NCBI GenBank assembly: GCA_003242085.1 | Contig: QBML01000029.1 | Location: 1 to 64,000, forward strand | Direction: 5' to 3' | Source: Pseudanabaena frigida | GTDB lineage: Bacteria; Cyanobacteriota; Cyanobacteriia; Pseudanabaenales; Pseudanabaenaceae | Length of the DNA stretch: 64,000 nucleotides | In this document: in pieces, positions 39,148 through 50,221 of the stretch | How positions within the stretch are numbered: the first letter of the stretch is position 1 | How the letters are laid out: each line of letters opens with the position of its first letter | Translations under genes and position numbers: made by a program | The notes under the pieces: generated by a model | The model's input: only the letters and a program-made list of their open reading frames with translations | Told to the model about the DNA's origin: nothing | Database searches by the model: none

Positions 39148-39243
39148 GATGATTTTTACTTCGTCATAGGTGAGTTGATAGAGTTTGTAAACTAAGCGAT
39201 CGCACAGCTTTTCTTGTTCACTTGTATCAGCAAGGCGATCGCT
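39148..39243 (-). repeat. Restriction-modification tail repeat, copy ii
   Basis: Begins at the stop of the RelE/YafQ-like toxin gene (39242-39244). Minus-strand translation CDRLVYKLYQLTYDEVKIIDPEFELT..., then a stop near 39110, matches the extreme C-terminus of Eco57I-type enzymes. The best-preserved copy. Confidence 0.75.
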
Positions 39244-39523
39244 AGTAGACTTCATCGTGAGTACCAATATCAAGTAGGACTATTGCTTCTGTCTGTTCTT
39301 CAGAAATTTCTATAGTAAATAGAATTCTACAGTCATAGCCACAGGAACAGGCTTTTAATCCTGCTAATTTGCCTTGCAGTGAATGAGTACTTAACTGGGT
39401 TGCAAAAACGTCCTCTTTCATCAATTGTAATATTTGAATTAGTCTTGGTTCAAGCTGAGAATTACGCTTGGCAAATTTCCGAAATGCTCGTTTGAATTTT
39501 GGCGTTAAAACTAGTTCTCTCAT
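39242..39523 (-). CDS. RelE/YafQ-family toxin
   Basis: 93 aa. LVLTPKFKRAFRKFAKRNSQLEPRL and SLQGKLAGLKACSCGYDCRILF are typical of cyanobacterial YafQ-like mRNA interferases, with the conserved basic and Tyr/Arg residues and the C-terminal GTHDEVY. Its start overlaps the last base of the antitoxin stop codon, the usual operon coupling. Should cut mRNA at the ribosome unless bound by the antitoxin. Confidence 0.85.
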   Translation of the reverse strand: MRELVLTPKFKRAFRKFAKRNSQLEPRLIQILQLMKEDVFATQLSTHSLQGKLAGLKACSCGYDCRILFTIEISEEQTEAIVLLDIGTHDEVY

Positions 39524-39744
39524 TAGTCTTCTGCCAAAGTTGCTTGTAGTTCAGAAATGATTTCTTCTATGGGTTGAGGTTTTAGCTCTCCACGATGAAA
39601 GGCAGCGATCGCTTCTTTGGCATCTTGAGCAATTTCCTCTCGACGGGCTTCAATCATTTGATTCTTAACTATTTCTAAAAGCATTTCCCTTTGTTCAATT
39701 GAAAGCTGATTAACTGTTAAAATTGCTTCTTCCAATGTAACCAT
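39523..39744 (-). CDS. Antitoxin of the YafQ-like module
   Basis: 73 aa, acidic, mostly helical: TLEEAILTVNQLSIEQREMLLEIVKNQMIEARREEIAQDAKEAIAAFH. Precedes the toxin with a one-base overlap. AGGAGA lies 7 nt before the ATG. No DNA-binding fold is obvious. Antitoxin role follows from position and pairing. Confidence 0.8.
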   Translation of the reverse strand: MVTLEEAILTVNQLSIEQREMLLEIVKNQMIEARREEIAQDAKEAIAAFHRGELKPQPIEEIISELQATLAED

Positions 39745-40112: not shown

Positions 40113-40310
40113 TTAAGAGAAGTAAGCAAGTGATGCAAGAATCTGTTCGCGGGTAACTGCGTATTCTTGGATGACTTCGTCATAGGTCATGCCACCAGCG
40201 AGGGAGCCGATAATCACGGCGATCGGAAGGCGAGTTCCTTTTAGTACGGGTTTACCATGTTGGATTTCGTTGTCGATGGTAATAATGTCATGTAGAATGA
40301 TGTTTTTCAT
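40113..40310 (-). CDS. DUF433 (VapB-like) antitoxin, orphan
   Basis: 65 aa. IQHGKPVLKGTRLPIAVIIGSLAGGMTYDEVIQEYAVTREQILASLAYF is the DUF433 signature. Antitoxin for a DUF5615 PIN-like RNase that here survives only as a fragment. AAGGAGA lies 8 nt before the start, so it could still be expressed. It may now act as an anti-addiction gene or be decaying. Confidence 0.85.
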   Translation of the reverse strand: MKNIILHDIITIDNEIQHGKPVLKGTRLPIAVIIGSLAGGMTYDEVIQEYAVTREQILASLAYFS

Positions 40311-40632: not shown

Positions 40633-42957
40633 TTACCTTTTACTTGGCAATAGCAGACTTTCCTCAATCTCCTGTCTCGTCTCACGTTGTACATAACAGT
40701 CGCTCTTCAGACATTCAACTAAAAGCCGATTCGCTTGATAATATTGCTCCAATTTTTTGCGTTGCTCATCGGTAAATTGCCAATCATGACCGATATTGCG
40801 ATGCTCGATTAGCACTTGGCGATATTCTGCAATCCATCTCTTATTATTCCTTTCCCACCATTCTATAAAATCGTTCCAGACTCGCTTGGGATTGGTAAGT
40901 TGATAATTTAGGGCTTGCAATCGTTGGTATAATTTCTCGTAGCCGATTTCCTTGTCGCAGTCGAAGTAGCGGATGCGGTCTCGGTTGCGAATGTTATTAG
41001 CGAGGATACGATCTAGAACTAGGTTGAGGTCTCGGTCGAGTGTAAGTTCTCGGATAAGGTCGAAGTCGCGGCTGAGGTTGCAGTCAAGGTCGGAGGTAAG
41101 GGGGCAGTGGGTATAGTCGAAGGTGAGTGAGACGTATAATTTGATTTTGTCATCGTCGTGATCGCGGTCAAAGGTGAGTTCTTGGCGTCTGCGGTTGAGG
41201 TCGAGAGCGATGTTGAAATAGTAAACTCTAACGGCAACAAGTTTATAAGAGACTTTTATTGATCGTGATTTCTCATCAACCCATGATAAAAAGCTCTGTA
41301 GCTTATCATCCTCCTCTAATAAACTATCAATCTTCCTTTTCATCAAAAGCAACAAATCATCGGCTTCCCTTGCTATCCCTACCGATAGCAAAATCACCTC
41401 TCGCCAGCGTTTGTCGGTAATATGAGTCACTAGATTTTGCAAGGCAGCTTCTAATTTGCTAGGGCTAGTCGATACCACAATCTGTCGCGCCGCAAAATAT
41501 TCATGAAAGGTCAAATGGGAGAAAGAGTAAATCCCTCTAGCGCGTTCTACAAATAGCCCATGCTGAGCCTCAATGGATTTCAACACGGCTTCGCTATCTA
41601 AATGCAACTCCTCCTCTTCGGTTTTCGCGTTAGAGGTATTACGAATATAGTCACAAATATAGTCCTCAAGTTGCCGTTGCTTTATAAAATAATCTCCCTT
41701 CTCAAAGGTTGTCAAAGCAATTTGCGAGAGCAAATCCTCCTTTTTCTGCACCGAAAAATCTTTATATACACTATCTCGCCTAATCCTTCTTTTTGAGTCC
41801 CATTTTCGCAACAATGCATCCAATCCTTCTTTATAAAGTTCTGAACGATTTGCAGGGAATTTCCCCGACTCATCAAAAGCCAAACATAATAAAGTCAGCA
41901 ATAATGGGCTTGTTGCTAATTGTTGAACTCGATTATTTTGCTCAAGCTTTGCTAAAAAATCCTCAGATTTAATTTCTTTCTTACAGAACCAATTTCCAGC
42001 AAAAGTAGCAATCTGTCGCTCGTCAAAATCTGCTATTTCTACTTCAGTAAACTGCTCAAAAGTGTATTCCTTCGTTGCTATTCGACAAGTCACCACCATC
42101 TGACTTTCGCTATAGTTTCGCGCTAATTCTCGAATCTCACGTAATATCCGATCGTCATGTTCGGCTCGAACTTCGTCTAATCCATCCATCAAAACTAAAG
42201 TCTTCCCAGATTTTAAAATCGCTTCAATTTCAATATCCCATTGACTAAACTCTCCCGTCAAAAATTGCAGCAAACTCGGACGATTTTCTCGATCCGCAAA
42301 ATCCTTTAACGTCACAAAGATAGGAACCCAATCCACAAAATCTTTCCCACTAATACAGGACATCGCCAAAAATTTCAAAAACGTAGTTTTCCCTGCTCCC
42401 GGTTTACCCAAAATCATCAACTTACTGTGATTTCTAACCGCTTCGATCCCCTCAACCCGCTTTTGTTTGATTCCTGACAATCCCCACCGATCGAACTCTT
42501 CAAATCCACATATAGCTCTAAATTCTTCAAGTTCTTTTCTTTGGTTGCGGGTTATCTTCTCCAAAATATTTACATCCGTATAAATATCACTCAAAGCGAC
42601 AGGTTGCTCCATATCCAACACCCGCATCGTCCCGCACCGTTTACGAATATCTTCCGCGCATCGCTCCCGTGCTAGTTTTACTAATGCCTCAATATCAATG
42701 CCCTCACCCCCAGCCCCTCTCCCAGTTGGCGATGGGAGTTGTCCAGAGATTTCTTGCCAATTAATTTCCAGCTTTTCGCAGATTTTGACAAAGATTTGGC
42801 GATCTACAGGTTTCCCCGCGAAGAAATTAGAAATTGTAGATCGTGACTGCACATCAACTAATTCCATTAGTTTCTCTTGCGTTAACTTCTTAGTCGTCAA
42901 AGCAATCTTTGCGATTTCGATGCCTGCTGTTGTTGCTTTTAAAGATCGATCGCTCAC
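40633..42957 (-). CDS. HTH-NACHT NTPase, bacterial NLR-like defence protein
   Basis: 774 aa STAND NTPase. N-terminal Cro/XRE-like helix-turn-helix (about 10-70, LTQEKLMELVDVQSRSTISN). A linker follows, of which residues 75-86 (PSPTGRGAGGEG) are encoded by an inserted REP-like repeat. The NACHT domain has Walker A GKPGAGKTT at 184-192 and Walker B LVLMDGLDE at 254-262. A helical region carries SHLTFHEYFAARQIV. A C-terminal segment (about 590-690) is very rich in Asp, Arg and Leu, and the tail is WNDFIEWWERNNKRWIAEYRQVL. Bacterial NACHT proteins of this layout protect against phage. Its HTH and the direct repeats upstream suggest autoregulation. Confidence 0.85.
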   Translation of the reverse strand: MSDRSLKATTAGIEIAKIALTTKKLTQEKLMELVDVQSRSTISNFFAGKPVDRQIFVKICEKLEINWQEISGQLPSPTGRGAGGEGIDIEALVKLARERCAEDIRKRCGTMRVLDMEQPVALSDIYTDVNILEKITRNQRKELEEFRAICGFEEFDRWGLSGIKQKRVEGIEAVRNHSKLMILGKPGAGKTTFLKFLAMSCISGKDFVDWVPIFVTLKDFADRENRPSLLQFLTGEFSQWDIEIEAILKSGKTLVLMDGLDEVRAEHDDRILREIRELARNYSESQMVVTCRIATKEYTFEQFTEVEIADFDERQIATFAGNWFCKKEIKSEDFLAKLEQNNRVQQLATSPLLLTLLCLAFDESGKFPANRSELYKEGLDALLRKWDSKRRIRRDSVYKDFSVQKKEDLLSQIALTTFEKGDYFIKQRQLEDYICDYIRNTSNAKTEEEELHLDSEAVLKSIEAQHGLFVERARGIYSFSHLTFHEYFAARQIVVSTSPSKLEAALQNLVTHITDKRWREVILLSVGIAREADDLLLLMKRKIDSLLEEDDKLQSFLSWVDEKSRSIKVSYKLVAVRVYYFNIALDLNRRRQELTFDRDHDDDKIKLYVSLTFDYTHCPLTSDLDCNLSRDFDLIRELTLDRDLNLVLDRILANNIRNRDRIRYFDCDKEIGYEKLYQRLQALNYQLTNPKRVWNDFIEWWERNNKRWIAEYRQVLIEHRNIGHDWQFTDEQRKKLEQYYQANRLLVECLKSDCYVQRETRQEIEESLLLPSKR
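42701..42737. repeat. REP-like repeat inside the NACHT gene
   Basis: CCCTCACCCCCAGCCCCTCT followed by CCCAGTTGGCGATGGGA is the widespread CTCACCCCCAGCCCCTCTCCC repeat. It is in frame and encodes a Pro/Gly-rich linker. Confidence 0.8.
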
Positions 42958-43031
42958 AACCCAAAATCCTCACGAAACCCTTACCACATTTATTTTATCT
43001 AAATTAACCAAAACATCCAAAATACCAATAA

Positions 43032-43097
43032 AAACATAAATCAGACATAACCCAAACACAAGTCAGACATTGCTCAAACATAGCTCAGGTCGATGTT
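43032..43097. promoter_or_regulatory. Three 22-bp direct repeats upstream of the NACHT gene
   Basis: Tandem copies start at 43032, 43054 and 43076. Each has AAACA-T/C-A, then a TCAG-centred half, with the pattern TCAGACAT in copies 1 and 2. Copy 3 has diverged. They lie 75-140 bp before the NACHT start and 47 bp before the small ORF at 43144, a good position for a shared operator. Confidence 0.65.
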
Positions 43098-43143
43098 TTC
43101 AGCGATCGCACCTAAGCTAATCACATCGAATTAAATCAAGGCA

Positions 43144-43302
43144 ATGAAAAACACCCAAACGACCGAACCCTCAACCAGCGCTAATCCCAACCTCGATATC
43201 ACGCCTCTAATCTTGCCCATCAGCTACGCCATCTCAGGAGCGATCGCTCTCGCCGCGATCGCCGCCTTTCTTCGTCAACTATTCAACCTCGGCAGAGAAT
43301 AA
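43144..43302 (+). CDS. Small membrane protein divergent from the NACHT gene
   Basis: 52 aa. Soluble, Thr/Asn/Pro-rich N-terminus (MKNTQTTEPSTSANPNLD) then one hydrophobic helix (about 20-42, LILPISYAISGAIALAAIAA) and a basic tail FLRQLFNLGRE. No known family recognised. It is transcribed away from the NACHT gene and shares its repeat-bearing promoter region. A membrane-active partner of the defence protein is possible; that is speculation. Confidence 0.5.
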   Translation: MKNTQTTEPSTSANPNLDITPLILPISYAISGAIALAAIAAFLRQLFNLGRE

Positions 43303-43304
43303 CC

Positions 43305-43391
43305 ATGAGTGCCATTGCGATCGCCTGTTACCTTACCCATGAGATGACTAGGCGATCGCGATTACAACCCGTTACCGATGATGATAAATGA
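43305..43391 (+). CDS. Tiny ORF coupled to the small membrane protein
   Basis: 28 codons (MSAIAIACYLTHEMTRRSRL then QPVTDDDK), starting 2 bp after the previous stop. Part of it is encoded by HIP1 sites, which may make it fortuitous. The following ~250 bp to the PKS gene hold a decayed half of the AATAAGGAACC-type hairpin (about 43503-43545) and no gene. Confidence 0.25.
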   Translation: MSAIAIACYLTHEMTRRSRLQPVTDDDK

Positions 43392-43640: not shown

Positions 43641-44765
43641 ATGTATACAGTTTTAGAAGCGATCGCGACTGCCAACCCACCCTACAAACTCACCCAGTCT
43701 GAAGCAGCAGACTTTATGTTACAAACCGAAAGTTTATCCCCAACAATCAGAAAAAGAATTCCATCAATTTATGCCAACTCAGGAATTGATTATCGCTATA
43801 GCTGTATTTCCGATTATGGGGGAGATCTGCAAAAATTTGAACTATATCCACCTAATTGGGAACTGACACCAACTCCCACTACCTTTAGCCGCAATCAAAA
43901 ATATGCAACCTATGCTCCAAAAATTGCCCTGCAAGCAGCCGAACAGGCGATCGCGGAAGCAGAGCTTGAAGCAAAAGATATCACTCATATAATCATTGTT
44001 AGTTGTACGGGCTTTTCGGCTCCAGGTATAGATATTCACCTCATCAAGCATTTAGGGCTTTCCTACGCGATCTCCCGCACAATGATTGGTTTTATGGGCT
44101 GTCATGCGGCGTTTAATGGACTCAATGCAGCCCATGCGATTTGTCAAAGCGATCGCCAAGCTAAAGTTCTATTAGTTTGCGTTGAGTTATGTTCATTGCA
44201 TTTTCAAGTTGCGGATACTTTAGAAAATACAATTATCAATGCCATCTTTTCTGATGGAGCCGCCGCCGCAATTCTAACCTCACGACCATTCGCCGAAGCT
44301 GAAGGAAAGCTCGCCTATACCGATGGATATAGCTTATTGATTGAGAATACCGAAGAACATATGAATTGGACGATTGGTGATACTGGATTTCTGATGGGCT
44401 TATCACCCAAAGTTCCCGATGTAGTGGTCGGTCATTTACCCAATTATTTGAAAAACATATTAGATCAGCATCATCTCACTCAAAACGATCTCGACTTTTG
44501 GGCAATCCACCCAGGAGGAAGACGCATTATTGAAAAACTTCAATCAGTTTTAGAACTTAGCGATCGCATGGTTGCTGATTCCTTCGAGATTTTGCGGCGC
44601 TATGGCAATATGAGTTCGCCCACGATTCTATTTATCCTAAAGCGAATATTAGACAAGCATCAAGCGAGACTTCTCAACTCCCAAGATGCTAACTTTCAGA
44701 ATGGAATTGCTTTAGCCTTTGGCCCTGGACTGTCGATTGAAGGTTGTTTGTTTCAGACAGTCTAA
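43641..44765 (+). CDS. Type III polyketide synthase
   Basis: 374 aa chalcone-synthase-fold enzyme. The Cys-His-Asn triad is intact: Cys122 (SCTGFSAPG), His290 (AIHPGGRR), Asn323 (YGNMSSPTIL). It condenses a CoA starter with malonyl-CoA. The next gene is a methyltransferase, and an FAD oxidoreductase and MFS transporter follow after a break. This points to a methylated, oxidised alkylpyrone, resorcinol or quinone-like product. The product cannot be named from sequence. Confidence 0.92.
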   Translation: MYTVLEAIATANPPYKLTQSEAADFMLQTESLSPTIRKRIPSIYANSGIDYRYSCISDYGGDLQKFELYPPNWELTPTPTTFSRNQKYATYAPKIALQAAEQAIAEAELEAKDITHIIIVSCTGFSAPGIDIHLIKHLGLSYAISRTMIGFMGCHAAFNGLNAAHAICQSDRQAKVLLVCVELCSLHFQVADTLENTIINAIFSDGAAAAILTSRPFAEAEGKLAYTDGYSLLIENTEEHMNWTIGDTGFLMGLSPKVPDVVVGHLPNYLKNILDQHHLTQNDLDFWAIHPGGRRIIEKLQSVLELSDRMVADSFEILRRYGNMSSPTILFILKRILDKHQARLLNSQDANFQNGIALAFGPGLSIEGCLFQTV

Positions 44766-44792
44766 CCCTCTTACTATCATTCAGGAATATAT

Positions 44793-45527
44793 ATGCCTTC
44801 ATTTCAAATCCGCACCAATCAAGACGAATTGATGGATGACTTCACAATTCAGGATGAGCGTCTTACCGATGCATTAGAGCAACTGCGACCGATTAATCAA
44901 TTACTAGGAGGATATGCCACAACGATGGAAATAATTGCTCCTTTTTTAAAATCGCGTTCCAACCAAAAAACACGTATCCTTGATTTAGGAACGGGCATCG
45001 GAGACTTTCCTGAATACATTGTGCGTTGGGCTGCGACGCAATCACCTGCGATCGATGTTGAAGTTGTGGCGATCGATGCGAATCCTGTAACTGTCGATTA
45101 TGCGCGTTCGGCATTACAAAAGCGATTGCCGCTAAATCTCCAATCAAAGATTAAAGTCGAAGTCGCCGATGCCCTCGCGCTTCCCTATGCTGACGATGAG
45201 TTCGATCTAGCGATCGCTGCTATGTTTCTCCATCATTTTGCCCATGAGAATGCCGTGCAAATTGTGCGATCGATGCAACGAGTATCTAAGCATGGAGTTT
45301 TGATTAACGACTTACATCGCCATCCTTTTGCCTATTACGGTATCTATGCTCTTACAAGGCTTTTACCTGCTGCGCCAATGGTTCGTAATGATGCACCACT
45401 TTCAGTCCTGCGCGGTTTTAAATTCCCAGAATTAAAAAGTATCGCCGAATCAGCAGGATTAATTAATTTCTCTCTCAAATGGCGCTATGCCTTTCGTTGG
45501 GTACTAAGCACAGTAAATTCTAAATAG
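44793..45527 (+). CDS. SAM-dependent class I methyltransferase of the PKS cluster
   Basis: 244 aa Rossmann methyltransferase. SAM motif ILDLGTGIGDFPEYIV near residue 61, acidic motif VVAIDANPVTVDYA and VADALALPYADDEFDLAIAAMFLHHF. Starts 27 bp after the PKS gene, so it is in the same operon and should methylate the polyketide. The last 8 bp overlap the convergent HNH gene. Confidence 0.88.
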   Translation: MPSFQIRTNQDELMDDFTIQDERLTDALEQLRPINQLLGGYATTMEIIAPFLKSRSNQKTRILDLGTGIGDFPEYIVRWAATQSPAIDVEVVAIDANPVTVDYARSALQKRLPLNLQSKIKVEVADALALPYADDEFDLAIAAMFLHHFAHENAVQIVRSMQRVSKHGVLINDLHRHPFAYYGIYALTRLLPAAPMVRNDAPLSVLRGFKFPELKSIAESAGLINFSLKWRYAFRWVLSTVNSK

Positions 45528-49909: not shown

Positions 49910-49972
49910 GAGAAAGTACCTAAATTTAGCAATCCCTTACTAATTGTTATCACACCAACTCCCACTACAACA

Positions 49973-50221
49973 CAGCAAAATGTAACAAAAATTAGAAAGT
50001 ATCGAGGTTGCTTCGCACCTTCGATACTTTTTGAGAGCAGCAAAATGTAACAAAAATTAGAAAGTATCGAGGCTGCTTCGCGCCTTCGATACTTTTTTAG
50101 AACAGCAAAATGTAGTGAAAATTAGAAATTGTCAAGGCAACGGAACATCTTAGGCGCTTTTATGAAACAGAAAAACTAGCAAGTATAAAGGCTGATTTTT
50201 AACTACGATACTTTTTTATAG
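49973..50221. repeat. Four tandem 65-bp repeats
   Basis: Units start with CAG at 49973, 50038, 50103 and 50168, an exact 65-bp period. Copies 1 and 2 are nearly identical and each contains a hairpin AAGTATCGAGG...CCTTCGATACTTT with a GCTTCGC tip. Copies 3 and 4 are degenerate. No reading frame. Confidence 0.8.

Follow-up and report, generated by a model that had tools for sequence, protein, structure and literature searches.

The stretch of DNA analysed here, which we call the window, comprises the first 64,000 nucleotides of a contig of Pseudanabaena frigida. Its minus strand carries a gene for a 774-aa protein with a GTG start (40633..42957 (-)), in which Pfam recognizes a NACHT NTPase domain (residues 180-325, 41983..42420 (-), E = 2.5e-15), an NCH2 C-terminal helical domain (residues 676-771, 40645..40932 (-), E = 6.7e-34) and, weakly, HTH_3. 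The NACHT domain scores above the Pfam cut-off and conserves the Walker A and B motifs as GKPGAGKTT and LDGLDEV. When the whole protein was modelled with AlphaFold (pLDDT 71), the best fold matches were NLRC4, NOD2 and NLRP3; judged by its domains and this predicted fold, the protein belongs to the NACHT clade of STAND NTPases and has an NLR-like architecture. Residues 1-75 (42733..42957 (-)) are modelled as five helices (pLDDT 87). Profile comparison of this N-terminal part returned C.BclI, HipB and the 434 repressor, and fold comparison returned HipB, C.AhdI, CylR2 and SinR, the single E values being modest in both cases. By profile and predicted fold the head is a Cro/C1-type HTH domain, so that a DNA-binding domain and an NTPase would reside on one protein, as STAND transcription regulators require. 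The Pfam search gave no enzymatic effector domain on the protein, whose N-terminus is the HTH, and comparison with PADLOC and NCBIfam yielded no more than weak matches, to PDC-S60 and EruA. The NACHT gene is followed downstream by a DUF433 protein (40113-40310 (-)) and, at 39242-39744 (-), by a YafQ-like toxin (39242-39523) preceded by a 73-aa ORF, its possible antitoxin.

The GTG start is separated by 186 bp from a divergent ORF beginning at 43144, and within this gap lies an array of direct repeats (43032..43086 (+)), which we consider a putative operator. Repeats at this place had already been reported in a preliminary description of the DNA, as three head-to-tail 22-bp copies. The head-to-tail array is indeed real; it is better read as five 11-bp units (unit like AAGTCAnACAY), namely AAACATAAATC AGACATAACCC AAACACAAGTC AGACATTGCTC AAACATAGCTC at 43032-43086, given that the third 22-bp copy matches in its first half only. 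TRF reports both periods, 22 (43032-43082, score 67) and 11 (43032-43087); elsewhere in the window, at 49972-50128, it lists a 65-bp tandem repeat of 2.4 copies with 91% matches. Over the five units 30 of 44 positions match at a lag of 11, a count that none of 300 dinucleotide shuffles attained (p = 0.003), and among 30 further intergenic stretches of the window only one or two have such repeats at p ≤ 0.02. The orthologous promoter of a relative, G020, keeps all five units, and the family-1 promoter of G005 has three. The array ends 57 bp before the start of the divergent ORF. Read by eye, TCGATG (43090-43095) and TAAGCT (43113-43118), spaced by 17 nt, are a possible weak promoter of this ORF (43090..43118 (+)); a consensus promoter scan of this segment found no sigma-70-like site.

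The divergent ORF (43144..43302 (+)) encodes a small protein of 52 aa with one hydrophobic segment at about residues 21-44 (hydropathy 2.09), a predicted single-helix membrane protein that we assign to family 1. It has no Pfam match, and the 2-TM family CyanoTRADDas_TM (PF20712) does not describe it. We detected eight intact homologues in the 26 genomes of the genus examined. Close pairs show dN/dS values of 0.08-0.11, and the window and G020 copies differ by 13 synonymous and 5 non-synonymous changes. These values of about 0.1 indicate that the small ORF is translated and under selection; going by the substitution pattern, it is a true gene. Two relatives carry altered copies: in G003 (L006) the 3' half is tandemly duplicated, and what remains in G024 (L010) is roughly the final 19 codons plus the downstream hairpin. 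No convincing relatives outside Pseudanabaena turned up in 386 genomes sampled from the phylum, and the search of viral contigs, plasmids and PHROGs gave none, for which reason a phage or plasmid origin of the gene was rejected. On its other side the small gene is adjoined, at 43641-45527 (+), by genes for a chalcone synthase family protein resembling type III polyketide synthases and, after it, a methyltransferase.

Directly behind the small gene the RNA folds into a strong hairpin (43314..43362 (+), -29.2 kcal/mol, z -5.7) with the arms GCGATCGCCT/AGGCGATCGC, which are conserved in most relatives and may form a 3' end structure. The hairpin overlaps a 28-codon ORF (43305-43391) that is present in the window sequence and had been noted 2 bp behind the small ORF. 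Its status as a gene did not hold: the ATG reads ATA in G019 and is missing in G003, the frame closes elsewhere after 8 to 28 codons, and the DNA overlies the hairpin, so we rejected the ORF as a gene.

Family 1 is confined to Pseudanabaena, where it is encoded divergently from an HTH-NACHT gene or from what is left of one. The NACHT gene is intact in the window, G012 and G003. It is interrupted by a DDE transposase in G020, split in G019 at a repeat common to two contigs, reduced to a C-terminal remnant in G002, and absent in G005 from the site where G012 has it. The small ORFs are intact even where NACHT is broken, which leaves a dependence of the small gene on NACHT conjectural and counts against the explanation favoured below. 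When the remaining NACHT loci were searched for small hydrophobic ORFs in divergent orientation, a second single-helix family of 60-81 aa emerged, family 2. A profile search with it gave 16 loci in 15 genomes, 15 of them with the ORF divergent to a NACHT gene and one at a contig edge, and additionally the N-terminus of a family-1 protein in G001. In this chimaera a family-2 N-terminus is joined to the family-1 helix, showing that the two families recombine. The comparison of loci reveals further exchange. The window and G020 have HTH, repeats and small ORF in common (77-93% nt) at NACHT bodies of about 50% aa identity, while the window and G012 have the NACHT body in common (mostly 80-93% nt) and differ in HTH, repeats and small ORF. 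In the NACHT tree, some branches of which are weak, the protein paired with family 1 in G003 falls inside the family-2 clade; partners therefore change between NACHT clades, and the pairing as such persists across them.

Short tandem repeats lie near the small gene in all 19 promoters that we inspected, and they fall into four types. Type A (11 bp, AAACATAnnTC) occurs in the window and G020, type B (11 bp, CTAACATGAAG) in G016, G021, G019 and G012, type C (9 bp, GTCACGCAA) in G003, G008, G010, G004 and others, and type D (9-10 bp, ATGTAAGGC) in G022, G005 and a second locus of G020; the family-2 promoter of G002 reads as type C. Individual promoters give p values from 0.003 to about 0.13, with the repeats of G003, of G002 and of the three-unit family-1 promoter of G005 not significant alone. 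The distance from the repeat end to the small ORF is 56-62 bp for types A and C, 67-70 bp for B and 70-85 bp for D, and in type B the regulator's own start is also close, about 10-40 bp from the repeats. The repeat type equals the HTH type in 19 of 19 promoters, and repeats of this kind reaching p<0.05 were seen in 0 of 11 partnerless NACHT paralogues in one test and 0 of 8 in another, the loci in these counts not being independent of each other. Promoters that lack the window-type repeats have an HTH of another type and another tandem repeat in place; the type D heads are GerE/LuxR-like, below the Pfam cut-off. The repeat type follows neither the small-protein family, as family 1 is found with A, B and C, nor the NACHT body, as the two comparisons of the window with G012 and G020 reveal. 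HTH and operator are physically adjacent, so that joint inheritance of one block explains part of the match within the genus.

Beyond the genus, 67 of 367 sampled genomes contain HTH-NACHT genes at E≤1e-60. We divided the 84 analysable upstreams into core genes, a sister HTH group whose HTH carries the pattern RQPIW[RK]F (44), and non-core genes without it (40). At a distance of 100-260 bp, 15/40 non-core versus 0/44 core genes have a small hydrophobic ORF in divergent orientation (p=2.7e-6), and significant 9-11-bp repeats are found at 13/40 versus 3/44 (p=0.004), counts that are not phylogenetically independent and that use a split and a motif defined after inspecting the data. An earlier rule, later narrowed to the tryptophan in the recognition region, gave 13/37 versus 2/47; both versions are significant. 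The low share of non-core upstreams with significant repeats (13/40) counts against the operator reading. The 16 partner-bearing promoters of this survey include four that reach p≤0.05 individually, and all 16 together give a combined p of 2e-5. Grouped by eye, at least six unrelated small membrane-protein families occupy the divergent slot. One of them is the Pfam 2-TM family CyanoTRADDas_TM, divergent to HTH-NACHT in L027 and L197, with look-alikes in L132 and L142.

A 19-bp pattern for the 11-bp motif, TCANACAYAAGTCANACAY, was derived from five loci of other genera. When applied to the window, four of its five matches fall in the operator (0.52 matches expected), and the window operator is its best match in the whole genome. 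The pattern was found in 6/35 held-out non-core upstreams, compared with 4/700 shuffles. The motif of type C was met again in two further cyanobacterial families, at L131 and L038. A genome-wide regulon received no support: the operator is the sole tandem site, and the other sites with two mismatches have no HTH-NACHT gene nearby. In L079-L093, L100 and L101 the same HTH is the head of a conserved 320-aa protein (length approximate), possibly an acetate kinase, and TCAAACA boxes are repeated in the promoters of these genes. We rejected TCARACA boxes as a general operator for this HTH family, since they occur at the conserved set of HTH genes for the 320-aa proteins and are absent at core HTH-NACHT genes. 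Upstream of the core HTH-NACHT gene of L180, four 9-bp repeats TTGTTTGAA, which contain the reverse complement of TCAAACA, are located 32 bp before the start. In L135 and L140 the divergent neighbour across strong 11-bp repeats is not a membrane protein; it is soluble, has a length of at least about 205 aa and starts MNAITLTLDAPS or MSGINVTIDAPS, which counts against a general pairing.

Discussion

The explanation that we favour, by a modest degree, is that the HTH-NACHT protein is a STAND regulator of NLR-like build; it would bind its own helically phased tandem operator and control a swappable, divergent small membrane protein. At rest the protein would be a closed monomer. Upon sensing a signal, the NACHT domain would exchange nucleotide and oligomerise, allowing adjacent HTH heads to contact successive helical turns of the array (11 bp here, 9-10 bp in other types). 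Heads held just upstream of the small-gene promoter would then switch the small gene on, and in short promoters the same array would also abut the regulator's own start. The small protein would enter the membrane as the output, probably as a membrane-acting stress or abortive effector; its hydrophobicity, the variety of families in the slot and the immune context of NACHT proteins suggest such an effect. Autoregulation and joint control of the small protein had been suggested in the preliminary description. Both ideas gain support from the pairing, the conserved repeats of G020 and the type-matched HTH; binding of the HTH to the repeats, the direction of control and an effector or sensor role of the small protein are presumed. 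Neither of the outcomes that it named as refuting was seen: the small ORF stays beside homologous NACHT genes within the genus, and the orthologous promoter retains its repeats.

Control could also run in the opposite direction, with the resting HTH-NACHT protein sitting on the repeats and shutting both genes until activation of NACHT releases it and the small protein is made. Relatives of the Cro/C1 fold are mostly repressors or controllers, and the type B repeats, some 10-40 bp from the regulator's start, would suit autorepression. In all types, however, the repeats stop 56-85 bp short of the small ORF, near or upstream of a plausible -35 and not over the start, and the known STAND regulators MalT and AfsR activate. 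From the repeat position and this precedent we prefer activation with moderate confidence and regard the repressor version as rather unlikely. Less probable again, in our judgement, is a physical partnership of the small protein with NACHT, for instance as a membrane anchor, sensor or inhibitor, with the repeats merely tuning the joint dosage. The persistence of the pairing across NACHT clades would fit, as would the 2-TM family PF20712, named for TRADD-N contexts, which fills the same slot at other HTH-NACHT genes. A binding partner should co-vary with the NACHT body, yet similar bodies stand beside different families, and at least six unrelated membrane-protein families occur in the slot.

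Linkage alone, in which HTH, intergenic DNA and small ORF form one recombination block or mobile cassette and the repeats are functionless tandem duplications, strikes us as very improbable. Blocks are clearly exchanged by recombination, and MITE-like inserts and a transposase are present in these loci. Against this stand the four unrelated promoter backgrounds, each with a tandem repeat at a similar place, and the intergenic identity of the window and G020 (~90%), which exceeds that at synonymous sites. The recurrence of the 11-bp and type C motifs in other cyanobacterial families also weighs against mere linkage.

Returning to the activating STAND regulator, we put forward, as a tentative extension and with rather less conviction, that the HTH head and its cognate phased operator act as an exchangeable specificity cassette of an effectorless NLR-like NACHT sensor. 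This would be a modular immune or cell-death architecture, widespread in cyanobacteria, that switches on a swappable small membrane effector from at least six unrelated families. The familiar role of NACHT proteins is that of immune switches, their effector being a domain of the same protein or a protein bound by it. If a membrane protein gene is indeed switched on here, bacterial NLR-like receptors would work as transcription factors, as CIITA does in mammals. The type-matched sets of HTH and operator, which nature has exchanged between NACHT bodies, open the idea to direct testing, and unannotated small membrane proteins can be sought in the slot beside the operator. A literature search, thin on subscription papers, returned no account of a small membrane protein encoded divergently from an HTH-NACHT gene together with a matched operator. 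MalT, AfsR and other STAND regulators of transcription are already known; the pairing with a small membrane protein is the new variation.

Comparison with known systems

MalT is the STAND activator of the maltose regulon, a sugar-uptake regulon, and carries its LuxR-type head at the C-terminus, whereas the LuxR/GerE-like heads of type D here are N-terminal. Multimers of MalT bind MalT boxes cooperatively (PMC4381067), and the same logic, multimerisation enabling cooperative binding of a box array, is proposed for the array here. AfsR and the large SARPs of Streptomyces resemble the present protein in combining an NTPase switch with a DNA-binding head and in the direct repeats at the target promoter, here the putative operator. 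AfsR differs in its SARP/OmpR-type head and TPR sensor, as against a Cro/C1 head with NACHT-NCH2, and its target, afsS, is not known to encode a membrane protein. SARP activators including AfsR, itself a STAND activator, bind direct repeats 11 or 22 bp apart, that is, one or two helical turns (PMC10936776).

The bNACHT antiphage proteins share the NACHT core and a helical C-terminal domain; the library matches given above are weak. In bNACHT25 a nuclease effector occupies the N-terminus (PMC12169576), the place of the HTH here. CyanoTRADDas_TM offers the likeness of a membrane protein divergent to HTH-NACHT, with two TM segments as against the one helix of the window protein, and we saw no TRADD-N domain here. 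The WYL factor of CBASS is a separate regulator without an NTPase switch. The likeness lies in a transcription factor linked to an immune system, as described for WYL (PMC9122588).
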